Assembly: GCA_019309045.1 (NCBI GenBank)
Contig: JAFDGZ010000014.1
Location: 1-51,166 of the forward strand
Direction of reading: 5' to 3'
Length of the DNA: 51,166 nt
Source: Deltaproteobacteria bacterium
GTDB lineage: Bacteria; Desulfobacterota; Syntrophobacteria; BM002
The translations under genes were made by a program, and so were the position numbers. Shown one piece after another: positions 7,419-47,409 of the stretch. A model generated the notes under the pieces. It saw only the letters and a program-made list of their open reading frames with translations, was not told the DNA's origin and searched no databases. Each line of letters opens with the position of its first letter. The first letter of the stretch is position 1.

Positions 7419-7435
7419 GAGCCATTCCCTCCAGA

Positions 7436-10471: not shown

Positions 10472-10565
10472 TGTCTCTACCTCTCTTTTACAGGGTGCTC
10501 TGGGTCTACAAGTTTCTGATCTACTCGGATATTAAATCAAGACTGGCGTCAAGGAACCTGGCCTC

Positions 10566-11321: not shown

Positions 11322-11373
11322 TTTGTTTCTCCTGGACAAGAGCATCTGTGGGTTGCACGGGACAGTTGTCCTG

Positions 11374-17575: not shown

Positions 17576-18802
17576 ATGCAAGGTGAGCCGATTATTTTGG
17601 ACAAAAGAGAAAAGCGGAGACTGGCGGCACAGTTTCCAGATCTTTGCCTCACTTGTGGCACCTGCGCCGGTGGTTGTCCGGTAACCGGAGTGGACGGTAT
17701 GGATATGCGTAAAGCGGTGCGCATGGTATTGCTCGGCTTGGAACAGGAATTGATCGATTCCCGGTTTCCATGGATATGTACTCTGTGCGGCCGCTGTGAG
17801 GCAGCATGTCCCATGAACATCGATTTGCTGAAGATGATGCGTTCAGCGCGCAGCCATCGAGAACGAGACAAGGTGCCAGGAGTACTGCACAAGGGCGTGG
17901 AACAGTGCCTCAAATCTGGCAACAACGTGGGCATTCCCAAGGAAGATTATCTGTTTCTGCTGGAGGATCTGGCAGCGGAGCTGGCCGAAGAACTGCCGGG
18001 CTTCACCATACCCATTGACAAGAAAGGGGCCAGAATCCTGGTGACCATCAACTCCAAGGAGCCCTTTGCCGAACCTGAGGACATGTTTTTCTGGTGGAAA
18101 ATCTTTTACGCAGCCAAGGAGTCCTGGACTGTTCCCTCGGAAAACTGGGAAGGCGTCAACTGGGGGCTTTTTACTGGTGATGACGATTCCATGCGCGAGG
18201 TGGTCCGCAGAATTGTGGAGAACTACAAGAAGCTGGAGTGCGAGTATTTACTGTTGCCGGAGTGAGGCCACGCCTACTTTGCGACCAGGCTTGGTCTGCA
18301 ACAATGGTTTGTTGATGAAGGCGTCAAGTTCCTCTCCGTGCACGACCTGTTGAAGGAGTACCTGGAGACTGGCCGGATCAAGGTGGACAAGTCCAAACAC
18401 CCGGAGCTTGCCAGCTATCATGACCCCTGCAATTATGGACGCAAGAGCGAGCGCACCTTTGGGCACGGCTACTATGAGGAGCCCAGGTGGATTACCCAGC
18501 AGTGCGTAGAGTCCTTCGTTGACATGGAGCCCAGCCGGGCCAACAACTTCTGCTGCGGGGCCGGCGGCGGCGCCTGGGCCATGCCCTATGCTGAGGAGCG
18601 CATCTATTACGGTCGGGTAAAGGCCAAGCAGATCCAAGATAGTGGAGCGAAGCTACTGGTGGCTCCGTGCCACAACTGCCGCGACCAGATTATGAAGAGT
18701 CTGCGCAAAGAGTATGACATGATGGATCTGGAGGTGAAGTATCTCTGGGAACTGGTGGCAGATTCACTGGTGATCGACCAGGTCGAATCCAGCAGTGGGT
18801 AG
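17576..18802 (+). CDS. CCG-domain Fe-S oxidoreductase (HdrD/DsrK/TmcB-like), selenoprotein (Sec230)
   Basis: 408 residues read through the in-frame UGA at 18263-18265. Two [4Fe-4S] motifs come first, CLTCGTCAGGCP (about 23-34) and CTLCGRCEAACP (about 64-75). The CCG-type catalytic region follows: LLLPE-Sec-GHAYFATR, where relatives have ECGHA; HDPCNYGR; NFCCGAGGG; and APCHNCRDQI. In this superfamily such cysteines bind a noncubane [4Fe-4S] cluster acting on disulfides, so Sec probably sits at or near that cluster (inference). The ATG follows GGAGGAGG. There is no membrane partner next to it, unlike its paralogue at 39105-40391. A strong terminator follows. Confidence 0.9.
18281..18299 (+). 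promoter_or_regulatory. SECIS-like hairpin of first CCG selenoprotein
   Basis: GACC/GGUC pairs around loop AGGCUU, extended by GC/GC across one bulged U. The loop starts 22 nt after the UGA at 18263-18265 and has G in its second position. Confidence 0.6.
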
Positions 18803-25554: not shown

Positions 25555-25595
25555 AGTGAATCCTTTGCTGTGTGCACTGAGGGCAAACTCTGGAC

Positions 25596-26354: not shown

Positions 26355-26371
26355 GTCAGCTCTCCTAGATG

Positions 26372-29470: not shown

Positions 29471-29497
29471 AATTTTCATCCTGTCCGTTATGTTTGG

Positions 29498-30373
29498 CTA
29501 CAGACGAGCTGCATCCAGGATGTCAAGCAGTTTGTTCTCCCAGCCAATGGTGACGATGTGCACGCCGCAGCACCCTGCCTCTTTGAGAGAACGGACGATC
29601 TCCGCTGCGATCAACACACATTCACGCACTCTGTCTCCGGCTTTCTGGATGCGGTTGATTATTGCAGCCGGTATGCTGACGTTGTCCAGATGACGATCAA
29701 TGTAGCGGGCCATCCCCACCGATTTGAGCAGCAGCACCGTGGGAATGATTTTTCCCTTCCGGTCTCCCACCTTTTTGCTGAAGCTGGCATATGCCTCCAG
29801 ATCAAATACCGGGGGGGTAAGGAAAAACTCAGCGCCTGCTGCCATTTTCTTGTCCAGTTCCTGCAGCTCCAGATCAAGGGCCCCACCGGTTGCCCCAGAA
29901 TTAACAAATGAACCTACCAGGAAAGAGGGGGCGCCGCGGAGTTCCACGCCAGCCATATCCCGGCCTTGTTGCAGGGTCTTGATGACGTGCAACAATTCCA
30001 GTAGATCAATGTCGTATACTGCCCGTGCCTTATGGTGATCGCCGTAGCTCGGATCCTCCCCGGTGACAGCCATCACATTGGCCACTCCAAGCGCCTCGGC
30101 TGCCAGCAGGTCTGCCTGCAGAGCCAGCCGGTTGCGGTCCCTGCAGCAGAGCTGCATCACTGCTTCAAATCCCTTGCTTTGCAAGAGTATGGCGCCGCCC
30201 AGAGAACTCATACGCATGACCGCATTGCTCATTTCCGGGACCACAAAGGCGTCTACGCGTCCACGAACCATGACGGCGCTCTCCACCATGTGGGAAACGT
30301 CCACTCCTTTGGGAGGCTCCATTTCGGCCAGAACCAAGAAATCACCGGATATCAATTTTGACTGCATGTTCAT
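29498..30373 (-). CDS. metF: MetF paralogue (methylene-THF reductase family)
   Basis: A 291-residue MTHFR-family protein. Shared with MetF are CRDRNRLALQADLLAAEALG, VMAVTGEDPSYGDHH and GVHIVTIGWE near the C-terminus. It is more divergent than the MetF at 20467-21405 and has no metV beside it. It may be a second methylene-THF reductase, or an HdrA-linked form acting on another folate or C1 substrate. The ATG follows GGGGAG. It lies 27 bp before hdrA and 15 bp after a receiver gene, so the operon runs from the receiver to metF. Confidence 0.85.
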   Translation of the reverse strand: MNMQSKLISGDFLVLAEMEPPKGVDVSHMVESAVMVRGRVDAFVVPEMSNAVMRMSSLGGAILLQSKGFEAVMQLCCRDRNRLALQADLLAAEALGVANVMAVTGEDPSYGDHHKARAVYDIDLLELLHVIKTLQQGRDMAGVELRGAPSFLVGSFVNSGATGGALDLELQELDKKMAAGAEFFLTPPVFDLEAYASFSKKVGDRKGKIIPTVLLLKSVGMARYIDRHLDNVSIPAAIINRIQKAGDRVRECVLIAAEIVRSLKEAGCCGVHIVTIGWENKLLDILDAARL

Positions 30374-31012: not shown

Positions 31013-32374
31013 TTACCAATTTACCCGCAAGTCGTACCTCTTGATCTTGGCTGCCAGGGTTTTTCGGTTGATTCCCAGGATGCGGGCGGCTTGCTGCCGC
31101 TTGCCTTTGGTGCGTCGGAGGATAAACTGAATATAGCGTTTTTCTATCTCCTCCAAGGTGAAATTTTCTTCAGAAAATACCTGAAATTCTCCCTGGCGTT
31201 GGGTGATAAAGGACGGCAGGTGTTCGGGCTGGATTATTTCACAGTCTTCCAGGATAAGGATGCGCTCAATAGTGTGCTCCAGTTCTCGGACGTTTCCCGG
31301 CCAGGCGTAGGACGTGAGCATTTCCAGAGCTGCCTTGGATATACCTTCTACTTTTCTGTTGCTTCTCTTGGAATAAAGGTCGAGGAAGTGGTCTACCAGC
31401 AAAGGAATATCTCCGGTGCGCTCTCGCAATGGCGGCAGATGTATGGGAACCACACTGAGGCGGTAAAAGAGGTCCTCGCGAAAGGTGCCATCGTGGATGG
31501 CTTCGCGCAGGTCCCTGTTAGATGAGGCGATGATGCGAATATCCAGCTTTATTCGCTTCTGACTGCCGACTTTCATGAACTCCCGTTCCTGAATCACCCG
31601 CAGCAGTTTTGCCTGGATATTCAGACTGAGATTGGAAATCTCGTCGAAGAAAAAGGTGCCATGGTTTGCCAGTTCAAAAAGACCGTGTTTTGTCTGATAC
31701 GCTCCAGTGAACGAGCCTTTGACATGGCCGAACAGCTCGCTTTCCAAAAGACTCTCTACCAGGGCGGAACAGTCGACTGGTACGAACTCTCGGTCGGCGC
31801 GGTCGCTGAGGGCATGGATGGCTCTGGCTACCAGTTCCTTGCCAGTGCCGCTTTCGCCGGTAACGAGCACGGTGCTGTGACTGGGGGCAGCCTTCTTGAT
31901 CTTGGCGAACACCTGCCTGATGGCAGGGCTGTTGCCGACAATGTATGGCACCTCGGCTGCTGTGTCCTGAAGATGGACAGCGGAGCCGCAATCCTGGCTT
32001 GCACCGAGGCACTCCTGGGCCCTCGAGATGAGCGCTTCGAGTTCGTCAACCCGGAAGGGCTTTACCAGATAGTCCATTGCTCCGAGCCGAGTACACTGCA
32101 CAGCACTGTCTATGGTGGGATGTCCAGTAATCATGATGACCACAGTATCCGGATAGCTGGCTCGAATGCGCTTCAGCACTTCGATGCCATTCATTCCTGG
32201 CATCATTACATCCAACAAGACTATGCCCACCTTGTCTTTCGCCAGCAAAGACAGGGCTTCGTTCCCATTGGCGGCAGTGTAGTAGGGTAAACCCTGCCTT
32301 TCGAGTATTCGGCCGATGCCAGTGCGAACCACTGATTCGTCGTCTACCACCAGTATGTGAGACCTGTTTTTCAT
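31013..32374 (-). CDS. NtrC-type sigma-54 response regulator
   Basis: A 453-residue protein: receiver (1-120, D55 in LLDVMMP), AAA+ domain (about 145-385) with Walker A GESGTGKE (173-180) and Walker B FFFDEI, and a C-terminal Fis-type helix-turn-helix ([20 protein letters not shown]). The sigma-54 contact loop reads GSFTGA rather than the usual GAFTGA. The ATG at 32374 lies one base after the stop of the kinase gene, so the pair is translationally coupled and very probably cognate. Its targets are not visible; no strong sigma-54 promoter was found next to it. Confidence 0.92.
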
Positions 32375-32375
32375 C

Positions 32376-33881
32376 TCAGTTGCACCCAATTGTATCATCT
32401 CCGCTAATCGTGGGCAGCATAATGCGAAAGGTTGTTCCCTGCCCAGGTGTACTTTCCACTTCAATGGAGCCGCGGTGGGCCTCTATGATTCCCTTGACAA
32501 TGGCGAGGCCCAAGCCGGTGCCAATGACCTGTCTGGTCTTTGGATGCTTAACTCTGTAAAATTTATCAAAAATTTTAGGGAGTTCTTCCGGAGCAATTCC
32601 TATGCCCGTGTCAGTCAATCGCAGTTCGAGGTATTCTCCATGATCCACGGCAGAGAGCGATACCTTGCCCCCTTCAGGAGAGTAATTGATCGCATTGGCA
32701 ACTAGGTTGATAAAGACTTCTTCCATGCAGCGTTCATCTGCCTGGACCATTGGCATTTCCTCGGGCAAGGAAAGTTCAATTTCTACCCCTTGTTCTCGAG
32801 CTCTCTCAGCGAGGAGTGTACAGGTTTCCTTGATGATGCCATTAAGTTGCAAAGGTATTTGCTGCTGTACTGCATGGCCGCTCTCAATGCGAGCCACGTC
32901 CAGTAATTCGTTGATCATGTCCAGCAAGCCCTGGATCTTGTCATGGCCGCGTTGCAGTAGTTCCCGCTGTTTGGCAGTGAGTTCCCCGGCCATTCCTTCC
33001 AGAATCACACTGTGCTGTTGTTTGATTGCCGCAAGTGGAGAACGCAATTCGTGGGATACCTGCTGAACGAAACGGGACTTCATTTCGTCAAGTTCCTTGA
33101 GAGAAGTAATATCGTGAAACACGGTAACGGTGCCCAGCACTTCTCGTTCTGGCCCATACACGAGCCCGGAAAGAGCCCGCAGATGTGTCTGGGCTCGTTC
33201 TAGTTCCTGGACAATATACTCATCCTCCTGCTGTTGTTCCTGCAAGAGGAGGCGCAGCGCTTCAGTCAACTGTTCATCGTCGATAAAGTGAGACAGCATG
33301 GCCGTTGGAGTTGCCGGGGGAGTGAATCCCAGCAGTCTCATGGCAGCAGGATTGTGAAGAACCACCTCCAGGTTGCGATTGGTCACCAGCACCCCATCAG
33401 CCATGCAGGCTACAATAGTGCGGCTACGGCTCTGCTCCATGGCCAGGTCATAGAGGTTTCTTGCTCGTTCTTCCTGGAGCCGCCGAGCCTCCCTTTCCAG
33501 GGCCTGCTTTTCCAGGGCTCTCTTTACTAACAGGACCAGATGGTCTGCCCTGAAGGGTTTGGTAATAAAGTCATAGGCTCCTTTCTTCATGCATTCCACT
33601 GCACTTTCTACCGTGCCGTGGCCAGTGATGATGATCACTGGAATATCTGGGTAGGTCTGGGTGGTTTCCTCCAGGACTTCAATGGCTCCGAGGACTGGCA
33701 TTTTCAAGTCGCACAGCAGCAGATTCACGGGATTGGCAGGCAACAGATCCAGGGCTTCCTTGCCATTGACAGCGGTGAGCACCTGGTAACCCTCGGGTGT
33801 GAGAATACGACTGCAGCCCTCCCTGACGACTCTTTCGTCATCCACCACCAGAATGATTTCTGCCTGCTCTGCAGCCTGCAT
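32376..33881 (-). CDS. Receiver-PAS histidine kinase, partner of NtrC-type regulator
   Basis: A 501-residue soluble kinase with an N-terminal receiver (D58 in LLLCDLKMP), coiled coil, PAS (about 150-265), HisKA with H277 in QVSHELRSPL, and a HATPase domain ending GQGTTFRIMLP with GTGLGLAI. A receiver ahead of its own kinase means another kinase may feed it. The C-terminal half resembles WalK/PhoR-type kinases, unlike the HEINNP-type kinases in the rest of the window. The next gene downstream, coupled to it, is the sigma-54 regulator. Confidence 0.9.
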   Translation of the reverse strand: MQAAEQAEIILVVDDERVVREGCSRILTPEGYQVLTAVNGKEALDLLPANPVNLLLCDLKMPVLGAIEVLEETTQTYPDIPVIIITGHGTVESAVECMKKGAYDFITKPFRADHLVLLVKRALEKQALEREARRLQEERARNLYDLAMEQSRSRTIVACMADGVLVTNRNLEVVLHNPAAMRLLGFTPPATPTAMLSHFIDDEQLTEALRLLLQEQQQEDEYIVQELERAQTHLRALSGLVYGPEREVLGTVTVFHDITSLKELDEMKSRFVQQVSHELRSPLAAIKQQHSVILEGMAGELTAKQRELLQRGHDKIQGLLDMINELLDVARIESGHAVQQQIPLQLNGIIKETCTLLAERAREQGVEIELSLPEEMPMVQADERCMEEVFINLVANAINYSPEGGKVSLSAVDHGEYLELRLTDTGIGIAPEELPKIFDKFYRVKHPKTRQVIGTGLGLAIVKGIIEAHRGSIEVESTPGQGTTFRIMLPTISGDDTIGCN

Positions 33882-34082
33882 GCAATCTCCTGCCTACCGA
33901 AGAATTGATGTCTGCCTCTTCCTAAAGGGAGATGGCGGGGTTACCGTTCTGTCTGTCGCTGCTGGAGCGGCTTGGTCTATCTCCCCCTGCGGAGTCTGCA
34001 ATGCAAGTGGCACAGCAGCGAGGGCTGCCAGCCACTTTTTCTGGATAAACTTTCCCCCTCAGCTGCGACCTCACCCTAGCAA

Positions 34083-36374
34083 TTATTCCGCACCAGATCC
34101 CACTGGCAGGGTCACAAGGAAGGTGGCTCCCTGTCCGGCAGGGCTCTGCACTTCTATGCTGCCGCCGTGCCGCTGAATCACTCCATACACAACAGAGAGT
34201 CCCAGGCCAGTTCCTTTTCCCAGTGGTTTGGTAGTAAAGAAGGGTTCGAATATCTTGTCCAAATCCTCTGGAGGGATCCCGGGGCCAGTGTCCGAAAATG
34301 TCAAGACTATCTGGCTGCCATCAGTCGATGTCTTGCTGACTACGGTGATCTTGCCTTTGCCATCCATAGCGTCAGCAGCATTGAGAATCAGATTGGTAAA
34401 AACCTGTTGCAGTTCACCGGGATCTCCAAGGATCTGCGGCAGTGTAGAATCCAGCTGCAGGACAAATTCAATATTATGAAATAGTGCCTGATGCCGCAGG
34501 AGTTCCACACTCTGTTTGATGACGTCATTTACGTCAAAGAGAAACTTTTGTCCCAGGGACTGACGACTGAACTCGAGCAATCGTGTGACTATTTGTTTGC
34601 AGCGCAATGTCTGGTTGATGATTTCCTGCAGATCCGCACGCCACTGTTCATTGCTGGCAATTTCTTTCATCAGCATATCGGCATAGATGAGAATACCGGC
34701 AAGGGGATTGTTGATTTCATGAGCAACCCCTGCAGCCAGTCTGCCCAGAGAGGCGATCTTCTCCGCCTGCACCAGTTGACGCTGGGTTTGTTCGAGTTGA
34801 CGGCGCATTCTCTCATGCTCCCTGAGATCGGAAAAAATGCCCACACTGCCGAGCTCTCGTTCACCTTCCTGGATAATGGCTGCGGAGAAGTTCACCGGCA
34901 CCTCTTGTCCCTGTTTGTCAGTAAAAGAGATGCGCGTTGGGTTCAGTTTACCCGGGGGACCGTGTTCGTCAGCGCGCATTTTTCTCATGATCTCCCGGGC
35001 CAGTTCTGGATCGTAAAATTGGCTCAACATGCCAGGCTTGCCGACAATCTCTTCCGCCTGGTAGCCGAGAATACGTTCGGCCCCCTCGTTGAAAATCATC
35101 ACCGTACCCGAGGTGTCCGTGACTACAATGCCGTCAACAGAACTCTGGATAATATTCTGGAGAAAGCTGTTGGCTTTGCGTAGCTGACGTTCGATTTCAA
35201 TGCGCTTGGTGAGATCGCGAAGATAGACACATACTGTCCTGCCGCTGCCCAGGCGGCAACCGCTCATGCAGGTCTCATAGATACGCGAGTCACCCTGTTC
35301 CCAATGGGAAAGCTGCAGAGTGCTGCAAAAGCGCAGCTGCTCCTCGTCTTCAAGATCTGCTCGCTGCAGGAGTTCCTTGACCATTTCTTCGTGCTGGCTG
35401 GTGAGCAGCTCAGCGAGTGTCCTGCCTATCAGTTCACTTTTTGGGGAGCCGACGATTTCCGCCATCTTGCTGTTGGCAAAGATGACCCGACACTCCTGGT
35501 CCACCATCAGGATGCCCTCTTGGGTCATTTCGGTGAGGATCTCCACCTTTTTCTGGGCTTCCACTATGGGGGTAATGTCACGTATGGCCTCGTAGCCGCC
35601 GATGACTCTCCCGGAAGGATCAGTGATGAGAGAAGCGTTTACTACCACCGGGATCTCTCTACCGTCTCTACTGCGGATTACGCGTCTTATACCGGCAAGA
35701 GGCCTTCGATACTCCATGGCCTGCCTGAGCACGCACGCATCTGTCTGGCATTCCTTGGTGCAGAGCACCTTGGCACAGGTCATCCGGCCCACTACCTCTT
35801 CGCGCCGATAGCCGGTGAGCTCCTCAAGGTAGCGGTTCATGAAGGTGATCACCAGGTCAGGCCCCACCGTGAAAAAGGGAGTGGGAAAATTTTCTAGAAT
35901 ACTGGAGAGAGTGGCCAGCTTGTCCTGAATCTCCGGAAGAGTATCGAGATCCTCCATTGAAGGCCGCAGGATGGCCAGACAGCCTCCAGGAGCGCCCTGT
36001 ATGTCTTGAATCGCAGAGGCGGATACTGTGAAGGAAAGCCAATTGCCCTGCTCCATTGGCAAGCGAATGTTAGTGCGCAGGGAATTTCGCCTGCCATAGA
36101 GCACTTCTTCTACAAAACAGCTACTCCTGGAGTGGGGCTCCAGATGAAAGAGATCGGCGCAGGAGAGAAGAGGTTTTCCAGAAGAAAGGGTTCTTTTGAA
36201 AAGAGCTTCTGCCGCATTGTTTAGATAGACCAGGCGTTTGCTACTGTCTGCCACCACCACCGCATCAGTGACGTGGGCAAAATAGCGGTGCAGTTCAGAG
36301 CCCCTCAAGTTGCCAGTAGAGGGGGCTTTACCTGCCCTCTCCTGGCTTTGTCTTGCTGGATCAGGACGCTTCAC
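34083..36374 (-). CDS. Multi-PAS histidine kinase with cysteine-rich PAS domain
   Basis: A 763-residue cytoplasmic kinase with four PAS domains (about 27-135, 155-270, 280-395 and 405-520), HisKA with H552 in [12 protein letters not shown], and a HATPase domain ending GQGATFLVTLP. PAS 2 contains C200, C205, C209 and C214, like the cysteine-rich PAS of the kinase at 3514, and PAS 1 has C72 and C86. The HisKA/HATPase half is nearly the same as in the kinase at 36760-37890, a recent duplication. The start is GTG at 36374 with a weak ribosome site. The cysteines suggest redox or metal sensing (inference). Confidence 0.9.
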   Translation of the reverse strand: MKRPDPARQSQERAGKAPSTGNLRGSELHRYFAHVTDAVVVADSSKRLVYLNNAAEALFKRTLSSGKPLLSCADLFHLEPHSRSSCFVEEVLYGRRNSLRTNIRLPMEQGNWLSFTVSASAIQDIQGAPGGCLAILRPSMEDLDTLPEIQDKLATLSSILENFPTPFFTVGPDLVITFMNRYLEELTGYRREEVVGRMTCAKVLCTKECQTDACVLRQAMEYRRPLAGIRRVIRSRDGREIPVVVNASLITDPSGRVIGGYEAIRDITPIVEAQKKVEILTEMTQEGILMVDQECRVIFANSKMAEIVGSPKSELIGRTLAELLTSQHEEMVKELLQRADLEDEEQLRFCSTLQLSHWEQGDSRIYETCMSGCRLGSGRTVCVYLRDLTKRIEIERQLRKANSFLQNIIQSSVDGIVVTDTSGTVMIFNEGAERILGYQAEEIVGKPGMLSQFYDPELAREIMRKMRADEHGPPGKLNPTRISFTDKQGQEVPVNFSAAIIQEGERELGSVGIFSDLREHERMRRQLEQTQRQLVQAEKIASLGRLAAGVAHEINNPLAGILIYADMLMKEIASNEQWRADLQEIINQTLRCKQIVTRLLEFSRQSLGQKFLFDVNDVIKQSVELLRHQALFHNIEFVLQLDSTLPQILGDPGELQQVFTNLILNAADAMDGKGKITVVSKTSTDGSQIVLTFSDTGPGIPPEDLDKIFEPFFTTKPLGKGTGLGLSVVYGVIQRHGGSIEVQSPAGQGATFLVTLPVGSGAE

Positions 36375-36759
36375 GATAAACCGTTCTTTTCATATTCCCT
36401 GCCCCTGGCAGGCACTGGTCGCTGTTGCAGTAAAGATGTGCTCATAGCCCGCCTCTGCAAGATTGTAGAGTTGACAGCCTGTATTGCTTATGGGCCTAGC
36501 TGGCCAGTCTAGTGAATTATAAAGGACGCTGAGGCTTTTTTCAAAATGGCGCCCTCTGTCAGCGGTGTTTTGGCAAGCAGCAGCCTCACCATACACGATA
36601 CGTTGCACATGGCGGTTTACCCTGCTAGGCGCCCGGAGAAAGCAAGCTGGCCGCAGCGTCACTTGCAATAGCAGCAGAATGGCAAGCTGTGGCATAATGG
36701 GCGGCATCATTTTCAGTGCGTCCAGTTTTCCTGCTATCAGCTGACATGTGCACTGCAAG
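36375..36759. other. Intergenic region between two kinase genes
   Basis: 385 bp. A minus-strand open frame at 36390-36845 covers most of it but has no recognisable domain and overlaps the kinase gene, so I leave it out. No clear promoter or terminator was found. Confidence 0.4.
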
Positions 36760-37890
36760 TTATAAACAGCAGAGCTCCTCCCTTTCTGCGCTGCTTGCTG
36801 GAGGCTGCACCGGTATAGTAATGGCAAAGCAAGCCCCCTGTTCACCTGGATTTTCCAGGACTATGGAGCCAGAGTGCCGCTTGATCACCCCAAAGGCCAC
36901 GGCCAGGCCCAATCCTGTTCCCGTGCCTGATGGTTTGGTGGTAACAAAGGGTTCAAATATCTTGTCTGCCAGGTCTTGGGGTATACCAGGGCCAGTGTCT
37001 TCCACCCGGAGCACTATCTCCCTGCTGCCGGCATGGTCCCAGGTGGAGATGGCGATACGGCCTCTGCCCTCCATGGCGTCGGCGGCATTGAGGAGCAGAT
37101 TGGTAACTACCTGCTGGAATTCGTCCGGGTCGCCGACGAGCGGGGGCATGTCCTGCTGGAGATCGAGATCAATGAAGATGTTGTGAAAGATGGCCTGGTG
37201 TTCCAGCATGGCAACAGCCTGTTCAACTGTGAAATTCACATCGAATCTTATTTTTCTTCCCAGAGACTGTCGACTGAACTCCAGCAGACGGTTGGTAATT
37301 TGTTTGCAGCGCAGGGTCTGGGTGATAATTTCCGCCAGATCCTGGCGCCAGGGATTGTTGTCCTCCATTTCTTTCATGAGCATTTCAGCATAGATGAGAA
37401 TACCGGCGAGAGGATTGTTGATTTCATGGGCCACTCCAGCGGCAAGTCTGCCCAGAGAAGCTATCTTTTCTGCATGAAGGACCTGCCTCTGGCTCTCTTG
37501 CAGTTCTCGGCGCAGCCGCAGCTTTTCTTCTGCTCTCTTCAGGGCAACCGTAAGGGCTTCGTCGTGGATGGGCTTGGTGATGAAATCTGAGGCCTTGAGT
37601 TGCAGGGCTTTGATGGCAACTTCGATGTCGCCGTGACCGGTGATGACGATCACTTCAGTGTCTGGCGATTCCGCCTTTATATGTCGCAGCAGCGCGATGC
37701 CGTCCATGCCTGGCATCTTTATGTCGGTGACTACAAGTGCAGGGTGCTCCCGCCGGAAAAGCTCCAACCCTGCCTCTCCATCAGGGGCAGAGAGCACCTG
37801 ATAGCCGGCGTCCTGCAGGGCAATTGAGAGCACCTTGCGAATCCCCTCTTCGTCATCAACCAGCAGAAGTTTCTGGCACTGAACAACCAT
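36760..37890 (-). CDS. Receiver-histidine kinase hybrid
   Basis: A 376-residue soluble protein: receiver (1-120, D56 in VVTDIKMP), a short coil, HisKA with H155 in [12 protein letters not shown], and HATPase with GTGTGLGLAV. No PAS or membrane part is present, so it is driven through its receiver. The receiver shares [18 protein letters not shown] with the receivers of the kinases at 40928 and 47402. The ATG at 37890 follows GAGGA; an upstream start at 37935 lacks a site. Upstream lies the divergent regulatory region to the membrane complex at 38414. Confidence 0.9.
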   Translation of the reverse strand: MVVQCQKLLLVDDEEGIRKVLSIALQDAGYQVLSAPDGEAGLELFRREHPALVVTDIKMPGMDGIALLRHIKAESPDTEVIVITGHGDIEVAIKALQLKASDFITKPIHDEALTVALKRAEEKLRLRRELQESQRQVLHAEKIASLGRLAAGVAHEINNPLAGILIYAEMLMKEMEDNNPWRQDLAEIITQTLRCKQITNRLLEFSRQSLGRKIRFDVNFTVEQAVAMLEHQAIFHNIFIDLDLQQDMPPLVGDPDEFQQVVTNLLLNAADAMEGRGRIAISTWDHAGSREIVLRVEDTGPGIPQDLADKIFEPFVTTKPSGTGTGLGLAVAFGVIKRHSGSIVLENPGEQGACFAITIPVQPPASSAEREELCCL

Positions 37891-38413
37891 TGTCTTTCCT
37901 CGACTAGCTTTGGCCTGCTCTCCTCTGCACCGCAAATGTGCTCGGATCAGTCGTCAATTTTGCGCAAAGTATCACAAAATAACCTGTCAATTGCAAGGCG
38001 TTTTGTGAATATTCATCATGTTACAGCAATAGGACAATCTCCAGATGCACCCCTGGTGCACGTGGTGACGCCGTGGCAAAGTCCACCAGGACCGCTTGGG
38101 TGGTTTCAGGTCAAGGCAGAGAACGGGTAATTTGGTATCGGATGGGACATTATTACACAAAAGGAAAAAATGGCCTTGAATTTGATAGCTTAGAGGGTTT
38201 TTTGTTTACGAGGCGGGGTATTTCCCCCTCTCGCTTGCCGGCGGCCGTTTCTGCAGTATGGATATATCATATTGAAATGTATGACTATTTTATACTGGTA
38301 CCCTTTTGGGCATACGGTTTGCTCCCCATAAAGCCGTTGAGAAGTCTGCACTTTTTTCAAGTCGCTCTCATTGAGATGTGGAGGCCTAGACCCACGGTGT
38401 GGAGTGGAGCCCT
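37891..38413. other. Divergent intergenic region before the membrane redox complex
   Basis: 523 bp between the minus-strand kinase and the plus-strand cytochrome-b-like gene. It contains the two-box module at 38125-38209. No open frame here looks like a gene. Confidence 0.5.
38125..38209 (+). promoter_or_regulatory. Two-box regulatory module upstream of the membrane CCG(Sec) complex
   Basis: GGGTAATTTGGTATC (38125-38139) and TTTTGTTTAC (38200-38209) match the boxes at 17230 and 17305 exactly and with the same 75-bp offset. Both sites precede a CCG selenoprotein gene or operon, so the module probably marks co-regulation. Confidence 0.6.
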
Positions 38414-39064
38414 ATGAACTTGTACGAATTACTGCGAGGCCCTCTGTTGTGGCTGTCCTTTGGGGTGTTTGTCTGTGGGATGATTGTGCGGATCATCCTT
38501 TTTGCCAATTTGAGCCTCAAGAAAGACAGGCCCATTTATCGGTTTTTCAACTGGAAGTGGCTGTGGTTGTCAATCTTTCATTGGCTGATCCCCCTGAACC
38601 AGACAGCGAAAAAGAATCCCATAGTGACGCTGGTGGGATTCCTCTTTCACATCTGCCTGATTGCCACCCCGCTGCTGCTGCTGGCCCACGGGGTCCTCTG
38701 GTACGAATCCTGGCAAATAAGTTGGTGGTATCTTCCTGAAAAAATAGCTGATTACTTGACCCTCGTTACTATAGCTTGCGCCCTTTTCTTGTTAATTCGC
38801 CGGCTGGTGTTGCCCCATGTACGAGTGGTGACCACTTTGGCAGACTATGTTCTTCTGCTGCTCACGGCGGCCCCCTTTGTTACAGGATATCTGGCCTATC
38901 ACCAGTACTTTCACTATGAGACAATGCTTCTGCTGCACATGGCTTTTGGTGAATTGATGCTCGTGGTGATTCCTTTTACCAAATTGAGCCATTTTCTGAT
39001 GTTTTTCGTTTCCCGGGCAGTAACTGGCATGGAGTTTGGCCGCCGAAGCGCTCCCTCCTGGTAG
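38414..39064 (+). CDS. Membrane cytochrome-b-like subunit (NarI/DsrM/TmcC family)
   Basis: A 216-residue protein with about five transmembrane helices: residues near 10-30, 70-92, 105-127, 137-157 and 165-190. Histidines within or near helices (for example FHICLIATP, AYHQYFHYE, LLHMAFGE and KLSHF) are candidate heme b ligands, as in nitrate reductase gamma, DsrM and TmcC. It would exchange electrons with quinone and anchor the CCG subunit. The ATG at 38414 follows GGAG, and the CCG(Sec) gene starts 40 bp downstream. With the tetraheme cytochrome the order matches Tmc-type complexes of sulfate reducers. Confidence 0.85.
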   Translation: MNLYELLRGPLLWLSFGVFVCGMIVRIILFANLSLKKDRPIYRFFNWKWLWLSIFHWLIPLNQTAKKNPIVTLVGFLFHICLIATPLLLLAHGVLWYESWQISWWYLPEKIADYLTLVTIACALFLLIRRLVLPHVRVVTTLADYVLLLLTAAPFVTGYLAYHQYFHYETMLLLHMAFGELMLVVIPFTKLSHFLMFFVSRAVTGMEFGRRSAPSW

Positions 39065-39104
39065 AGCACAGGGTTAAAATTCAATGTCTGCAGAGGAGGA
39101 ATGC

Positions 39105-40391
39105 ATGACAGAGACAGCAAGATCTAGCGCCCAACCGTTCAGCAAGGCAGTGGCAGACAGGATGAATGCCCGTCTGAAAATGTGGCTGGAGATCTGTGCC
39201 CACTGTGGCCTCTGTGCTGATACCTGCCATTACTATCTTGCCAACGACAGAGATCCGAAAATGATCCCGGCCTACAAGGCCAAGAAAGTGCTGGAAGCGA
39301 TCAAGAGAAAGGACAGAGTGGACGAGGCATTTCTTGATGACCTCTACTGGCGAGTCTACGGAGAGTGTACCATGTGCCGCCGCTGTACCATGTACTGTCC
39401 CTTCGGCATTGATATCGCCACCATCACCAGCATGGGGCGCGGCCTGTGCGTATCCCAGGGAAAGGTGCCTGAGAATCTGGTCAAGACCATTGAGAACTAT
39501 CTCGAGCATGGCAATCAAATGGCCATAACCAAGGAGGAATGGATAGACACCCTGGAGTGGATGGAGGAAGAACTCCAGGAGGAGCTCCCTGGAGCCACCA
39601 TTCCCATTGACAAGAAAGGCGCCAATCTTCTCTATACGGTAAATGCCAGAGAACCTAAATTTTATCCCATGGATATTTCCCAGGCTGCCATGATTTTCTA
39701 TCTGGCGGGCGAGGATTGGACCGTGTCCACCAAGGGATGGGATGATACCAATCTGGCCATGTTTGCCGGCGACCTCAAGTGTGCTGCCTATGTGTCGCAG
39801 CTGGTGCGCGATGCTGCCGAGGAACTGGAGGTGAGACGCGTGGCCATTACGGAATGAGGCCACGCCTTGCGTGCGCTTCAGTTTGAAGCGCCTGTCTGGC
39901 TGGGCCGTGATCACAAGTTCGAGGTGGTGCACAGCGTCACCCTATTTGCCGAATATGTCCGCGAAGGACGGCTCAAACTGGACAAGACGGTCTTTGCCAA
40001 TGAGCGGTGCACCTACCAGGATCCCTGCAATGTGAGCCGCAACGGCGGCTGCGGCAGAGATGCCAGGGAAATCATTTCTTATCTCTGCGAGGATTTTGTG
40101 GAGATGGAACCTCACGGAGACTACAATTTTTGCTGCGGCGGCGGTGGGGGAGCCATACCCATGGCGGGCCCATTCAGAGAGCGGCGTCTAAAGGCCGGCA
40201 AGGTAAAGGCCGTGCAGATCCGGGCAACTGGGGCGACTATCTGCATTACCCCCTGTCACAACTGCTATGATCAAATTCGAGATCTCAACAAAGAATATGA
40301 CCTGGGTATCCGAGTTCTCTCTTTTAAAGAGATGTTCGAACAGGCCTTGATTATTCCCGAGGAACTAAAAGCCAAAGACGAAGAAGACTGA
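39105..40391 (+). CDS. CCG-domain Fe-S oxidoreductase of membrane complex, selenoprotein (Sec251)
   Basis: 428 residues read through the UGA at 39855-39857. It has [4Fe-4S] motifs CAHCGLCADTC (about 31-41) and CTMCRRCTMYCP (about 88-99), then the catalytic region AITE-Sec-GHALRALQ (relatives: ECGHA), QDPCNVSR, NFCCGGGGG and TPCHNCYDQI. It is a paralogue of the protein at 17576-18802. In TmcB/DsrK/HdrD such a region holds a noncubane cluster for disulfide or related chemistry; here one conserved cysteine is Sec. The ATG at 39105 follows AGGAGG by 5 nt; an ATG at 39084 has none. It is cotranscribed with the membrane subunit and the cytochrome. Confidence 0.92.
39873..39891 (+). promoter_or_regulatory. 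SECIS-like hairpin of second CCG selenoprotein
   Basis: A perfect 8-bp stem GCGCUUCA/UGAAGCGC with loop GUU. The loop starts 24 nt after the UGA at 39855-39857 and begins with G. This is the strongest of the eight hairpins. Confidence 0.85.
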
Positions 40392-40447
40392 CAGGGCATT
40401 GACAAACCACGGCAGATGCTGGGTGGTCTGCGCTGAGGAGGGCGGGC

Positions 40448-40906
40448 ATGCTGTATCGAGGACGTCTACTGGTATGGATAGCGGTCCTGGCCGGAGGAGG
40501 GCTCCTGCTGGCAATGCAGTTGCAGGCGCAGCCAGAAGAGATCGTTTTGCAGGACCAGGTGGTGTTCGGCCAACATCAGCGGCCTCCTGTGGCGTTTCCC
40601 CACATGCTTCACATAGATGCAGACCTCGACTGCACAACCTGCCACCATCGTTTTCAGCGCGGTGAGAACGTCCTAGACGAGTCAGAGTTAGAGGAGGGTG
40701 CAGAGGGGATCAGCTGCTCTTCCTGCCATAAAAACAGCGCCGGCTTCCAATTTAGCCCCGAGGTTGACCCCACGAAGAAGATATTGAGGCAGGCCTATCA
40801 CCGTATGTGTATCGGCTGTCACCGCGGTATGAGGAAAAAAGAGGTGAAAGGCGGGCCTGTGGCCTGCGGTGAATGCCATATTAGGCCCAAGTCGGCCCAG
40901 CCCTGA
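40448..40906 (+). CDS. Periplasmic tetraheme cytochrome c (TmcA-like, class III)
   Basis: A 152-residue protein with an N-terminal signal sequence (LVWIAVLAGGGLLLAM, cleavage after AQA likely) and four heme motifs: CTTCH, CSSCH, CIGCH and CGECH. Extra histidines (HMLHID, HHRF) could be distal ligands. It is exported and accepts or donates electrons at the periplasmic face. Following the membrane subunit and the CCG(Sec) protein on the same strand, it completes a Tmc-like complex that moves electrons between periplasmic cytochrome, quinone and a cytoplasmic CCG site. The kinase gene at 40928 converges 22 bp away. Confidence 0.9.
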   Translation: MLYRGRLLVWIAVLAGGGLLLAMQLQAQPEEIVLQDQVVFGQHQRPPVAFPHMLHIDADLDCTTCHHRFQRGENVLDESELEEGAEGISCSSCHKNSAGFQFSPEVDPTKKILRQAYHRMCIGCHRGMRKKEVKGGPVACGECHIRPKSAQP

Positions 40907-40927
40907 CTCGGCTTCGCACCTGGGCGG

Positions 40928-42472
40928 CTACTTTACTGGCAGGGTGATGGTGAAAAGAGTACCCTTGCCCGGTTCACTCGATATTTGAATGGTTCCCTTA
41001 TGGCGGTCAATAATGCCGTACACTGTAGAGAGGCCCAGGCCTACACCCTTGCCCTCCTTCTTGGTTGTAAAGAAGGGATCGAAGATCCGCGGCAGGTGTT
41101 CTTCGCTGATGCCACAACCAGTATCGGCCACACTCACCTTGATTTCTTTTTTCTCGCGATGATAGCGACTCGAGATGGACAGAGTGCCGCCCTGGGGCAT
41201 AGCATCCATGGCGTTGAACATGATGTTGAGGAAACATTGCTGAATTTGATCAGCATCAGCGGGCAAGGTCGGCACCTGGGGATCCAACTCGGTTTTGATG
41301 GTGATGTTGTGGAGCTCCAGATTGTGTTCACTGAGGGTGATGCAGCGACTGAGCAAGTCATTGACGTTTACTTCACAGACTTCCAGCTTGGATTTTCGGG
41401 AAAAGGCCAGCAGGCTGGAGACGATTCTCGAGCATCTGCTGGTTTCGCTTTCCATGAGGGTGAGGTACTTCTGAAACTTTTCTCTATATTCCGGGGTGAG
41501 CTGACCTCGCTTGAGAATTCGCAGCATGAGTCGGACGTAGTTGAGGATGCCGGACAGGGGATTATTGATTTCGTGAGCCACGCTGCCCGCCAGTTTGCCG
41601 AGAGATATCATCTTGTCCTGGTGCAGCAGTTTGGCCTGATCAGCAAATTGTTGCTCCAGCTTTCTTATGTCTCTGAGATCACGGAAGAAGGCAACAATGC
41701 CGATCTCCTCGTCTCCTTCGAAGAGGCTGCTGGCTGAGAGCTGTACCGGCACGTTGCTGCCATCTTTGGCAATGAGGGTGTTTTCGTATACGGACAGTCT
41801 GTATTTGCCGCCATAATTGTCGCTGTAGAGGATCTGTTTGATCCTGTCAGCATCTTTCGGGGAAAAGAAGAAATCAAAAGACTTCTTGCCAATAACCTCC
41901 TCTTTGGTATAGCCGAGCATTTTTTCCAGACTTCTATTGAAAGTGTTGACGATGCGCTGCCGATCACAGGCGAGAATGCCGTCCATGGAGCTCTCGATGA
42001 GATTTTTTTGAAAGTTGTATGTCTCTGCGAGCTTGTCTGCCGTGTCCATCCATCTCTCTTCCAGCACAGCCGTATAGTCGCGCAGCTCCTTTCTGGTGTG
42101 ATAACGTTCCTTGGCCCGTTTGAGGGCGATTTCCAGGGCTTCATTATGAATAGGTTTGGTAATGAAATCAGAGGCATCGAGTTGCAGCGCCCTTATTGCC
42201 AGTTCCATATCCCCATAGCCGGTGATAACGATCACCTCCCTGTCCGGGTCCTCGGCCTTGATTCTGCGCACCACCTCGAGCCCGTCCATGCCGGGCATGC
42301 GAATGTCGGTGATGACTATCTGACAAGGATGCTGGCGCAGCAGTTCAATGCCGCTTTCCCCATCTGCTGCTGTGAATACTGTGTAGCCGGCATCTGTCAA
42401 TTCAATGGCCATGACTTTGCGGATGCTCTCGTCGTCGTCTATGAAAAGGATACGCCACTTCTTGGCAATCAT
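40928..42472 (-). CDS. Receiver-PAS histidine kinase
   Basis: A 514-residue soluble kinase: receiver (1-120, D56 in VITDIRMP), coiled coil, PAS (about 155-270), HisKA with H300 in [13 protein letters not shown], and HATPase with GKGVGLGLS. The receiver shares [18 protein letters not shown] with those at 36760 and 47402. The ATG at 42472 follows GAGGAG; an in-frame extension to 42652 lacks support. It converges on the Tmc-like operon and diverges from the sigma-54 activator at 42928. Confidence 0.9.
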
Positions 42473-42667
42473 GGCAGCAGATCTCCTCTGTTGCAGTCTC
42501 GAGGGCTGGGGCTGATATGCTCCTCCCAGCGGACAGCACTGGCCATCGTGCCAGGCAGTCCCGAAACTGGAGAATGGCCCGCCTCCCCACGAGGTGCCCC
42601 GCGGGCAGTTGTCTCTACTTTTCTGGTTGCAGGTACCTTTCGGGCATGACAATCAGCATGATTGTTT

Positions 42668-42697
42668 ACTATAACAGCACTTACTCTAGCATAACAA
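42668..42697 (-). promoter_or_regulatory. Candidate sigma-70 promoter of the 40928 kinase
   Basis: TTGTTA (42692-42697) and TATAGT (42668-42673) are separated by 18 bp on the minus strand, facing the kinase start at 42472. Confidence 0.4.
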
Positions 42698-42798
42698 GTT
42701 GCCTTCCTGCTCATGCAGCCTGGCCACAGGCAGGCGGCAGGTCACTCGGGGTGTGGTGGCTGAGGTCCGCGACTCTCTCCCGAGCATGGGGGGCACTT

Positions 42799-42825
42799 TT
42801 GGATCAACCGTGCTTGTGATAGAAT
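42799..42825 (+). promoter_or_regulatory. Candidate extended -10 promoter of the sigma-54 activator
   Basis: TTGGAT (42799-42804) is followed at 15 bp by TGATAGAAT, an extended -10 box (42817-42825), about 100 bp before the ATG at 42928. The short spacer lowers confidence. Confidence 0.35.
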
Positions 42826-42927
42826 TTCAGCCAATACCGGTCCAATATCAAACCTGGACACTTGAGGGCTGAGCGGCCTCGACAGAGGAAGACAACCGGA
42901 GCCTTGACAAAGGTGGGGAGGAGAGCC

Positions 42928-44676
42928 ATGCCGGTCACCCGGGCTGCAACTGATATCATTTTTCATGAACAATTGAGCCAGCTGTTAGAGAACTTAGGAA
43001 TCGGTGTCTTCACTGTGGACAGGGATCGTCGTATCACTTCTTTCAATCAAACTGTCCAGAGACTTACAGGCTTCAGTGAGGAGGAGGTGCTCGGCAGACA
43101 GTGCTACGATGTATTTTACAATGACCTCTGCCACGGCGAGTGCATGTCCCGGGACGATATCCAAAAGGCAGGAAGGCCACAGGCCTTTGACATGGAAATT
43201 CAAGACCAGAAAGGGAATCGTCACCGAATCACCAAGCTGGTTTCTCCCCTGCTGACCAGCGATGGGCGTGTGAGCGGCTGCATTGAAATTTTTCAGGATT
43301 TTTCTATTTTCAGCGAACTGCTCGAACGTATCCGCTATGGTGAACACAGACTCAAGCTCATTCTTGATAATCTGGACATTGGCATCTTTACCGTCAACAG
43401 AAGCGGCCATGTTATGTCTTTCAATTCAGTGGCTGAGACAATCACCGGCTACAAGCGCCGGGAGATTCTCGGCCAACACCACGCCAAGTTCATGGGCTGT
43501 GACCGCCCGGAGGTGAGATGTCTGCTGAATGAGTCGATCAAGACCGGGAAAAAACTCGCAGATCATCACAGTCATCTGGTCACCAAGGACGGTTTGAGTC
43601 TGCCCATACGGGTAAGTTTCCTGGCCCTGAGAAACGAGAGTGGCCAGATTGTGGGGGGCCTGGGAACTTTTCAAGACATCTCCCTGATCCAGCAGCTCAA
43701 TCGTGCCATAAGCAAGACCTATACCCTCGACGATATGGTCGGCAAAGATGGATTGATGCAGCAGATCTTCGAGATTGTGCCGGTGGTTGCTGCCAGCGAG
43801 GCGAATGTGCTCATCGAGGGTGCCACCGGTACCGGTAAAGACCTGCTGGCCAAAGTAATCCACAAAATTTCCAGACGCAAGGACAAGCCTTTTGTAAAGG
43901 TGAACTGCGCAGCGCTGCCGGACAGCTTGCTCGAATCTGAAATGTTCGGCTATGTGAAGGGGGCCTTCACCGGCGCAGACCAGGACAAGCCTGGAAGGTT
44001 CCAGGAAGCGGATGGCGGCACGATCTTTTTGGACGAGATAGGCGATTTGCCCCTTTCTTTGCAGGCAAAGCTTCTCAGAGTACTCGAAGACAGGGAGTTC
44101 TATCCTCTAGGTGGCAGAAAGCTCACGCGGGTAGACGTACGCATTATTGCCGCCACCAACCAGGGGCTGGAGCGTCTGGTGAGAGAACGAAGGTTCAGAG
44201 AGGATCTTTATTACCGCTTGCATGTCATGCGCCTGGAATTGCCGCCGCTCAACAAGCGGCGGGGCGACATCCCTCTGCTGATCGATCGCTTCATCAGGCG
44301 CTACAACGCTACCAAAGGAACAGCTATTGGCAGAGTCTCCGAGCAGGCCATGGATGGGCTCCTCAACTATCAATATCCTGGCAATATTCGCGAATTGGAG
44401 AACATCATGGAACATGCCTGCATCCTCTGCCAGGGAAGTGTCATAGAGTGGCGGCATCTCCCGAAATATCTGAGGGTGCCGCTCGACCAGAATCACCATG
44501 AAAGGCCTGCTACAGAGTGGCAGACCTCCGAACATGGCGAGCATGATCAGGAAAAAAGGCAAATATTGACGCAACTTCGCCAGAACCAGTGGCATAGGCA
44601 AAAGACAGCCAGGGCCCTCGGCATTGACCGCACTACTCTGTGGCGCAAGATGAAAAAGCACAATATCGTGCCTTAG
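42928..44676 (+). CDS. PAS-PAS sigma-54-dependent activator with cysteine-rich PAS
   Basis: A 582-residue protein: PAS 1 (about 12-125) with C59, C68 and C72; PAS 2 (about 133-250); AAA+ (about 265-505) with Walker A GATGTGKD, the canonical GAFTGA loop and Walker B TIFLDEIGD; and a C-terminal Fis-type helix-turn-helix (KTARALGIDRTTLWRKMKKH). It has no receiver, so its signal enters through the PAS domains, possibly redox or metal through the cysteines. The ATG at 42928 follows GGGGAGGAG. The downstream region has GTTGC dyads and a sigma-54 promoter (45019-45034), making the kinase operon at 45073 its likely target. Confidence 0.92.
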   Translation: MPVTRAATDIIFHEQLSQLLENLGIGVFTVDRDRRITSFNQTVQRLTGFSEEEVLGRQCYDVFYNDLCHGECMSRDDIQKAGRPQAFDMEIQDQKGNRHRITKLVSPLLTSDGRVSGCIEIFQDFSIFSELLERIRYGEHRLKLILDNLDIGIFTVNRSGHVMSFNSVAETITGYKRREILGQHHAKFMGCDRPEVRCLLNESIKTGKKLADHHSHLVTKDGLSLPIRVSFLALRNESGQIVGGLGTFQDISLIQQLNRAISKTYTLDDMVGKDGLMQQIFEIVPVVAASEANVLIEGATGTGKDLLAKVIHKISRRKDKPFVKVNCAALPDSLLESEMFGYVKGAFTGADQDKPGRFQEADGGTIFLDEIGDLPLSLQAKLLRVLEDREFYPLGGRKLTRVDVRIIAATNQGLERLVRERRFREDLYYRLHVMRLELPPLNKRRGDIPLLIDRFIRRYNATKGTAIGRVSEQAMDGLLNYQYPGNIRELENIMEHACILCQGSVIEWRHLPKYLRVPLDQNHHERPATEWQTSEHGEHDQEKRQILTQLRQNQWHRQKTARALGIDRTTLWRKMKKHNIVP

Positions 44677-44815
44677 TGCATCGATTCGCAGATACTGTGA
44701 CGTATTCTGCAGATTTACCTCGAAGCAGTTTCTCAGTCAGCACTAAGTCCTGTGTCAATAAGTTCGTCATTTAACTTATGCATTGAAGGACTTGGCTCGG
44801 AAAGTAATTGATATG

Positions 44816-44919
44816 GTTGCTGCTGCAACGGTTGTTGCAACAATGTTGCATCATGAGCGCAACACAGTAACCATTGAAATTAGCACCAAATAACATAGAA
44901 ATGTTGCTATTTATGTTGC
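44816..44919 (+). promoter_or_regulatory. GTTGC/GCAAC dyad cluster, candidate activator binding sites
   Basis: GTTGC-N4-GCAAC (44816-44829), the perfect palindrome TTGTTGCAACAA (44832-44843), TGTTGC-N9-GCAACA (44844-44864), then TGTTGC at 44902 and 44914. They lie 100-200 bp upstream of the sigma-54 promoter, the usual place for enhancer sites, right after the activator gene. Confidence 0.6.
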
Positions 44920-45018
44920 ATCTCCCCATCCCTGCAAGACTCTGGTATATAGCCTCTCTAGTGATTTAAAGTTAGTAATATCAACTACTTGTAGCAGCCA
45001 TTTTAATCCAATTCCAGA

Positions 45019-45034
45019 TGGCATGGACCTGGCA
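45019..45034 (+). promoter_or_regulatory. Sigma-54 promoter of the heme-sensor kinase operon
   Basis: TGGCATGGACCTGGCA has GG and GC at the correct -24/-12 spacing and matches the TGGCAC-N5-TTGCA consensus except at two positions. It lies 38 bp before the ATG at 45073, with AGGAG between. Confidence 0.6.
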
Positions 45035-45072
45035 TGACTTTGAATTGAACCCTGCCTCCTGCAAGGAGCATC

Positions 45073-47409
45073 ATGGCTTTTTCCGGAACTGCCCAGTCAA
45101 TCCTAGGTGCCCTGGCAAACTTCAAACGGAGCTTGGGCCTGCAATTGAGCCTGGTAGTAGGCGTCATCTTTCTAGTGGCAGTGCTCGTCTTTACTTACTC
45201 CCTGGTTTCCTTCCAGGAAAAACTGGCCTTCCAGCGCATGGTGGACAATGTGGGCCGCTTCAGCGATGCTGTCAAACGAAGCACCTACTATAGCATGCTC
45301 AAGAACCAGCGAGAGAGTTTGCACGAGATCATAAAGGCAATCGGGGCGCAGCCAGGTGTAGAGAAGATCAGAATCTTCAACAAGAACGGCGCCATCATGT
45401 TCTCGAGCCTCAAGCAGGAGATCGGCACCAATGTGGATATGCAGGCCGAGGCCTGTTATGCCTGTCACCGGCGGGATAGGCCTCTCGAGCGCTTGAGCAT
45501 GGGGGATCGCAGCAGAATTTACCGCAATCCGAGCGGCTATCGCGTCCTGGGGATGATCAATCCCATCTACAATGAGCCTAGCTGTTGGCAGGCCAGCTGC
45601 CACTATCATCCTGAATCTCGTACTGTTCTTGGTGTACTCGACATAGGCTTGTCTCTCAAAGAGCTGGATCAGGAGATCAGTGCTACCAAGACCAGGACGG
45701 TGCTCTTTGCCCTGTTGATGTTCGTCGCGGTGTCCGCCATCATGGCGGTATCTGTGAACCATTTCGTAAACAAACCCATTCGTCGCCTGGTTTCAGCCAC
45801 CAAAGAGATAGCCAATGGCAATTACGACCAGGATCTGGGGCCGGTTCCTGACAATGAGATCGGTCATCTTGCCCTCTGTTTCGACGAGATGCGGCGCAAT
45901 ATTGGTGAGCAGGCTCGAGCGCTGCAGAGAAGCAAACAAGAGTATCAGATGCTCTTTGAAGAGGTGCCTTGCCAGATAACAGTGCAGGACCGTGAATTCC
46001 GCATAGTAAGGACAAATCGGGCCTTCGAAGAAAAATTCGGCAATCAGGTGGGTGAATACTGCTATCGGGCCTACAAAGGCAGGGATAGCAAGTGTGAGGT
46101 GTGCAGTGTAGACAAGACCTTTCGGGATGCTCAGCCCCACTCCAGCGAGGAAGTCGTGGTGAAGAAGGACGGCAGCAAGGCCTATATTTTGGCATTCGCC
46201 ACTCCAATCTTCAATGAGGCAGGTGAAGTCACGGCCGCCATGGAGGTCTCCCTCGACATCACCCAGGTGCGTGAACTGGAAGAAGAACTTAAGCGCTCCG
46301 AGGAGAAGTACCGCACGCTTTTCAACAGCGACCCCAATCCAATATTTGTCCTGGACTATCATACCCTGGAGATCCTCGATGCTAATGAGCGGGCTCTGGA
46401 GGACTATGGCTACTCCAGGCAAGAATTGCTGGGCAGGAGTTTTCTGGATCTTGCCGATCCTGAAGAGAGGGAAAGACTCAAGAGAGCCCCATGGCATCAG
46501 AAGAGCGCTATCTACAAGGTAAGGCACCGCACAAGGAGCGGTGGGCAACTCGTGGTGAACATCAGCTTTTCAAACCTGAGCCACATGGGGCAGGATGCGA
46601 TCATCGTTACCACCTCAGACGTGACTGAACGGGTGAGAAGTGAAGAGCAGCTGGTGCAGGCAGGCAAGATGGCCACCCTTGGGGAAATGTCGGCAGGTGT
46701 GGCTCATGAGTTGAATCAGCCTTTGTCAGTGATAAAGACTTCGTCCAGCTTTCTCCTGAAAAAAATTGCCCGGGGCGAGCAGATGGACGCTGAAATCTTG
46801 CAGACTCTTGCGGAAGAAATGGACAGTCAGGTGGATCGAGCTTCGCAGATTATCAATCATCTCCGCCAGTTTGGCCGCAAAACAGAGATTCGCAAGGTCA
46901 ATGTCCAGCTGAATGAGTGCATAGAGGGAAGCTTCACCGTGCTCGGCCGCCAGCTTGAAGTACATGGCATTCGGGTGGAGCTCGATCTAGACGGCAATCT
47001 GCCCCCTATCAAGGGAGACAGGAATCGGCTGGAACAGGTATTTCTCAACCTTATTATGAACGCCCGTGATGCCATGGACGAGAAAGAAGCGCTCAGCCGA
47101 GACGAAAAGGTGGACAAGGTGCTCACCATTGCTTCCTACCAGGAGCATGGTGAAGTGGTGGTAGAGATTGCCGACACCGGTGTGGGCATGAGTGAAGCAG
47201 TGCGGGAAAAAATTTTCGAGCCCTTTTTTACAACCAAGCCGGTTGGCAAGGGCACCGGCCTCGGCCTTTCCATCAGTTTTGGCATAGTCAGAGACTACGA
47301 CGGCCGCATTGAAGTGGAAAGCGTGGAGGGGCAGGGCACTCTGTTCAGGCTGAGGTTTCCTGCTGCCGAAGAGGAGAGGGAGGAGGCCATGGAGGTGGCA
47401 GGTGGCTGA
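45073..47409 (+). CDS. Transmembrane sensor kinase with periplasmic heme-c motifs
   Basis: A 778-residue kinase: TM1 (24-44), a periplasmic domain (about 45-205) with CYACH (128-132) and CWQASCH (171-177), TM2 (208-228), HAMP (about 230-285), PAS with C330, C341 and C344, a second PAS (about 405-520), HisKA with H545 in [10 protein letters not shown], and HATPase with GKGTGLGLS. CxxCH binds heme c; the second motif has four residues between the cysteines, which is unusual. It may sense periplasmic redox state or a ligand such as NO, CO or O2 (inference). The ATG follows AGGAG and is probably driven by the sigma-54 promoter at 45019. It overlaps the next kinase gene by 8 bp. Confidence 0.92.

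Follow-up and report, generated by a model that had tools for sequence, protein, structure and literature searches.

Selenocysteine (Sec) forms of CCG-domain iron-sulfur proteins have been described in several sulfate-reducing and related bacteria. In the part of their survey dealing with this family, Zhang and colleagues (2006; PMC1794560) listed a Sec-containing "Fe-S oxidoreductase (GlpC)" in Syntrophobacter, Desulfotalea, and Desulfovibrio, and reported that its gene shares an operon with Sec hdrA and frhD in Syntrophobacter and Desulfotalea. The selenoprotein tabulations of a 2026 review include an Fe-S oxidoreductase-like (GlpC) protein with the motif UGH (PMC13188914), and the passages on Hdr proteins in the Desulfobacterium autotrophicum genome paper name Sec-containing HdrD4 and HdrF2. 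For the fold, the sections on cluster binding in PMC13083937 describe EtfD, in which Cys503, Cys538, Cys581, and Cys584 hold a linear [3Fe-4S] cluster, D1, and Cys637, Cys672, Cys673, Cys709, and Cys712 together with His583 hold a noncubane cluster, D2, ∼8 Å from D1; the His ligand makes D2 non-catalytic. The same sections give the bridging Cys of HdrB as Cys81, the second Cys of a CX2C motif.

The stretch of DNA analyzed here (51,166 nucleotides, "the window") contains two genes, each with a Fer4_8 ferredoxin part and one CCG domain by Pfam (Table 1). Read with TGA as Sec, both are open throughout: the TmcB/HmcF-like gene encodes 428 residues and the soluble HdrD-like gene 408, and each contains just one TGA before its end, at residues 251 and 230, respectively. 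The two contexts, ITE-U-GHAL and LPE-U-GHAY, share E-U-G-H-A, and in both the UGA coincides with the invariant Cys of E-C-G-H in homologues. The open frames and the homologue column described below thus bear out the sequence-only reading, which had placed Sec at the Cys of an ECGHA motif in both CCG proteins.

Table 1. Positions of the two Sec-containing CCG genes, their Sec codons and hairpins, and the neighbors of the TmcB-like gene, numbered within the window.
Feature	Positions	Strand	Evidence
tmcC-like membrane anchor gene, first of operon	38399..39064	+	NCBIfam NF045723 TmcC, 241.5 bits (curated cut-off 240)
TmcB/HmcF-like selenoprotein gene	39105..40391	+	Pfam, NCBIfam, alignment of relatives, predicted structure
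UGA codon, Sec251 (E-U-G-H-A)	39855..39857	+	Open frame, homologue column
SECIS hairpin, 8 bp, loop GUU	39873..39891	+	Covariation; synonymous conservation peak
tmcA-like tetrahaem cytochrome c3 gene	40448..40906	+	NCBIfam NF045722, 83.6 bits (below cut-off 114); CxxCH motifs; kept position after tmcB
Soluble HdrD-like paralogue (GlpC-type), selenoprotein gene with Sec230	17576..18802	+	Open frame, NCBIfam, orthologues
UGA codon, Sec230	18263..18265	+	Open frame; TGA in 36/36 close orthologue loci read
SECIS hairpin GACC-AGGCUU-GGUC, bulge and short lower stem	18280..18300	+	Core stem identity; synonymous conservation

The column corresponding to residue 251 held TGA, TGC, or TGT, with no exception among the homologues read. 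In a set of 123 non-redundant homologue rows it was Cys in 82 and Sec in 41, and never Ser or Ala, with at least six Sec/Cys switches on a quick tree that counts changes irrespective of direction. The soluble paralogue has UGA in nearly all close orthologues (∼45 genomes) and Cys in more distant clades. Apparent TAG or TAA codons inside some homologues were considered as possible pyrrolysine codons and rejected; in the eight loci checked, none fell within the aligned protein except one terminal stop.

Downstream of the UGA in the TmcB-like gene, a hairpin pairs from G19-C37 to A26-U30 (numbered from the U of UGA). Across 11 Sec genes 96.6% of its cells were paired, with high covariation relative to shuffles and slides and with both-side changes at three pairs, whereas in 11 Cys genes 42% of cells were paired, no better than shuffles, so the hairpin has been lost in the Cys orthologues. 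Synonymous conservation in the Sec forms was highest gene-wide at codons ∼+4 to +13 after the UGA, reaching in 7-codon windows 0.89 against a mean of 0.47 for the TmcB type and 0.98 against 0.51 for the soluble type; Cys forms had no such peak. In the soluble gene the hairpin region ranked first for synonymous conservation among 309 windows, and its core stem was identical in 31/31 distinct sequences. Covariation together with a conservation peak confined to Sec genes excludes a chance hairpin. The case for a SECIS element rests on these two signals, since an Rfam search of the window returned no family at its gathering threshold and hence no SECIS call. The sequence-only reading had also noted an 8-bp hairpin after the second UGA and called it the strongest in the window; the hairpin is there, but in a ranking of the 10,226 40-nt windows on the + strand by folding energy its best one comes 21st, and stems of 10–13 pairs occur elsewhere. 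Of the six regions following a UGA in the window, this one folds most strongly (−29.5 kcal/mol, z −3.4).

The source genome encodes SelA (621 bits), SelB (397 bits), and tRNA-Sec (74.8 bits). SelB was found in 105 of 118 relatives, which makes it a weak test of Sec decoding because it is nearly universal there. A SelB hit was absent from six MAGs with UGA forms (G017, G019, G039, G046, G088, and G096; four are 67–94% and two 97–99% complete), as might be expected if the UGA were a true stop, a sequencing or assembly error, or a codon for another amino acid; given UGA at one column in tens of genomes, a covarying SECIS, and Sec machinery in the source genome, we consider that highly improbable. 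The Cys- or UGA-only column, the covarying hairpin, the synonymous conservation peak, and the SelA/SelB/tRNA-Sec complement make it near certain that the two genes encode a selenoprotein pair in a sulfate-reducing-type bacterium.

NCBIfam models placed both Sec proteins nearest HmcF, TmcB, and DsrK, with all curated cut-offs missed. The TmcB-like protein scored highest against HmcF (469 bits over nearly full length, cut-off 750), followed by TmcB (398 bits over nearly full length, equivalog cut-off 735) and DsrK (206 bits, cut-off 400). Identity as HmcF was rejected on score and because the neighboring genes match TmcC and TmcA better than HmcE and HmcA; identity as DsrK was rejected likewise on score, and the genome has a genuine, Cys-containing DsrK (744 bits) at another locus, in a dsrMKJOP cluster whose dsrMJOP genes were named by gene order and sequence rather than family search. 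Although it fails the TmcB cut-off and has Sec in place of Cys, the protein is predicted to work like TmcB, because its gene sits between those for a TmcC-like anchor and a TmcA-like cytochrome in a conserved order: tmcC-tmcB is retained in most homologous loci and tmcC-tmcB-tmcA, the order of TmcB itself, in many, Sec or Cys. Five near relatives (L056, L058, L060, L064, and L065) have the order hdrA-mvhD-metV-metF-tmcC-tmcB-tmcA-cooC-like-purH(N)-hdrD(Sec), at loci with enough flank and as far as each contig reaches; the window holds the same kinds of genes in a different arrangement. The conserved tmc/hdrA/metF block suggests that Tmc exchanges electrons with one-carbon metabolism. Around the tmc operon (31013–48991), PAS sensor histidine kinases and sigma-54 regulators are dense.

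Several other genes in the window belong to the same functional context. Two HdrA genes (7298–10531 and 11374–14463, both −) have UGA in NECAMU and NECSMU, the known Sec HdrA CxxU site, and two MvhD-like genes (6726–7580 and 10521–11384, both −) have UGA in GGUHFGDCHY and SGUHPGECHY; with the two CCG genes, this makes six selenoprotein genes likely in the window. Two further, UGA-free HdrA genes lie with metF-like genes at 20467–30373 (−), one set also including mvhD- and metV-like genes, and we interpret these sets as probable Hdr-linked methylenetetrahydrofolate reductase modules. The N-terminal, IMP cyclohydrolase portion of PurH is encoded on its own (202 aa; 16580–17188, +), in a gene conserved next to the Sec HdrD gene. 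A third Sec HdrD-like paralogue in the genome (L167, 13614–14942, −) lies ∼4 kb from dsrMKJOP. A plasmid search gave matches of only ∼26%.

The single-sequence AlphaFold model of the soluble paralogue was unusable (pLDDT 35), and structural analysis was based on the TmcB-like protein (pLDDT 91.4). Its best fold match was EtfD (9OJN, TM 0.72 by query length), followed by LutA and HdrB chains, in agreement with the HdrB/HdrD/DsrK relationship recognized from sequence; a PDB search found no solved structure of DsrK or TmcB. The chain comprises two 4Fe-4S motifs (residues 31–98), a degenerate N-terminal CCG half containing Sec251, and an intact C-terminal CCG half. Profile alignment paired U251 with EtfD Cys581, H253 with His583, and A254 with Cys584, and HhAlign comparisons with HdrB-like and EtfD-like proteins of the same genome placed residue 251 identically. 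In HdrB terms, Sec251 corresponds to Cys78, the leading Cys of an N-terminal CX2C that is degenerate here, and Ala254 to the bridging Cys81. Among 59 aligned relatives, the only invariant Cys were eight in the ferredoxin part, five in the C-terminal CCG set (C308, C343, C344, C384, and C387, a set that does not include residue 251), and residue 251; the remaining D1-ligand positions were not conserved as Cys.

With all five C-terminal Cys ligands present, a noncubane cluster is predicted in this protein. Because Sec251 aligns with EtfD Cys581, the other D1 ligands are gone, and the C-terminal set is invariant, Sec251 is probably the orphan first Cys of a lost N-terminal cluster site, facing the kept cluster. 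The earlier expectation of a selenolate near the noncubane cluster is thereby supported, its position coming from alignment to EtfD and HdrB (∼17% identity for EtfD). The accompanying claim, that the Sec residue is itself a cluster-holding CCG Cys that could tune the cluster potential as a direct ligand, fits less well. In its favor, the EtfD equivalent of His253, two positions after Sec251, is a ligand of the noncubane cluster, and with the other cluster lost the Sec251 side chain could turn to the remaining one. However, the five canonical ligands are complete, the homologous EtfD Cys serves the other cluster, and Sec251 matches the first CX2C Cys rather than the bridging one; since the half-site's other ligands are gone and the C-terminal set is invariant without it, tuning by ligation is the weaker reading, and we regard it as unlikely. 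Sec251 is most likely a lone, non-ligating reactive selenol that faces the noncubane cluster rather than holding it.

We favor, with modest confidence in the model as a whole, a mechanism in which Sec251 is a non-ligand opposite the noncubane cluster and a disulfide-type substrate is split between cluster and selenolate. The TmcB-like protein would carry out catalysis on the cytoplasmic side of a Tmc-type complex ordered as periplasmic cytochrome c3 (TmcA), membrane anchor (TmcC), and the Sec protein with its two 4Fe-4S and one noncubane [4Fe-4S] clusters, the direction of electron flow being conjectural. HdrB has a second, N-terminal cluster site, of which only Sec251 is left here; this residue would sit on the opposite side of the active-site cavity to the cluster that is kept. 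The substrate would be cytoplasmic, either the disulfide or trisulfide of a DsrC-like protein or a small disulfide compound. It would be cleaved with the Sec251 selenolate on one side and, on the other, the noncubane cluster's open iron, which His253 may gate; the selenolate would assume the role of the second noncubane cluster of HdrB. Stated most strongly, a selenol would here stand in for an entire noncubane cluster, and one such cluster plus one Sec would split a disulfide in a membrane complex that connects cytochrome c3 in the periplasm with thiol or one-carbon metabolism in the cytoplasm; we put this forward tentatively, as clearly less probable than not. If true, it would be a mixed Fe-S/Se two-electron active site without description in the literature searched.

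Some points weigh against the favored model. The site could do no more than relay electrons, given that the His makes EtfD D2 non-catalytic, and the His is not universal: a Cys-bearing TmcB-like subgroup (L176 and L177) has ECGT for ECGH, keeping the Cys where the His is lost. Sec is also not essential to the protein's role, because Cys orthologues exist at 76–79% identity. Sec251 might have no substrate chemistry, instead shielding the cavity from irreversible oxidation or acting as a faster electron-relay or redox-switch residue, as proposed for [NiFeSe] hydrogenase. Cys forms are indeed common and working in the same operon type, and FadF/DgcB relatives without the D1 Cys are thought, in the sections of PMC13083937 that discuss them, still to pass electrons to D2. 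Retention of Cys or Sec in all 123 homologues is, however, stricter than mere protection predicts, and we judge this explanation decidedly unlikely. The position at which Sec and Cys naturally interchange indicates where the reactive spot lies in Tmc-, Hmc-, and DsrK-type subunits, which is of value because their cytoplasmic partner and chemistry are unsettled; the ECGH Cys is also present in DsrK of the source genome. Because Sec and Cys orthologues can be paired within a single operon type, the role of this conserved Cys is directly testable, and Sec offers a 77Se spectroscopic handle on the noncubane cluster site.

Compared with EtfD, the TmcB-like protein shares the C-terminal noncubane Cys set and the His at the +2 position, but its chain has no membrane domain and has lost the linear-cluster ligands except the Cys that is Sec here. 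With HdrB/HdrD it shares an HdrC-like ferredoxin part, the HdrB-like CCG fold, and the intact C-terminal CCG motif; HdrB/HdrD proteins have two complete CX(n)CCX(n)CX2C motifs and two noncubane clusters, whereas here the N-terminal motif is down to one Cys/Sec, the Cys81 position is Ala, and only one of the two noncubane sites is kept. DsrK resembles it in having just one CCG-type half intact and in the ECGH motif. Judged by sequence, both Sec proteins belong to the predicted Fe-S oxidoreductase-like selenoprotein family (GlpC, COG0247, PTHR43551; UGH), having an in-frame UGA in U-G-H aligned with the homologue Cys, a SECIS just after it, and genomic Sec machinery. This family is already known, and the window agrees with its accounts (PMC1794560; PMC13188914) in U-G-H, a bacterial SECIS, occurrence in Desulfobacterota, Cys homologues, and association with Sec HdrA and FrhD/MvhD. 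The passages of those accounts on this family give no structural role for Sec and no Tmc operon link, and the relevant portions of two papers mentioning both TmcB and selenocysteine yielded no report of a Sec TmcB. Within the literature searched, the connection with a Tmc-type operon and the predicted assignment of Sec to a vestigial half-site therefore appear to be new.
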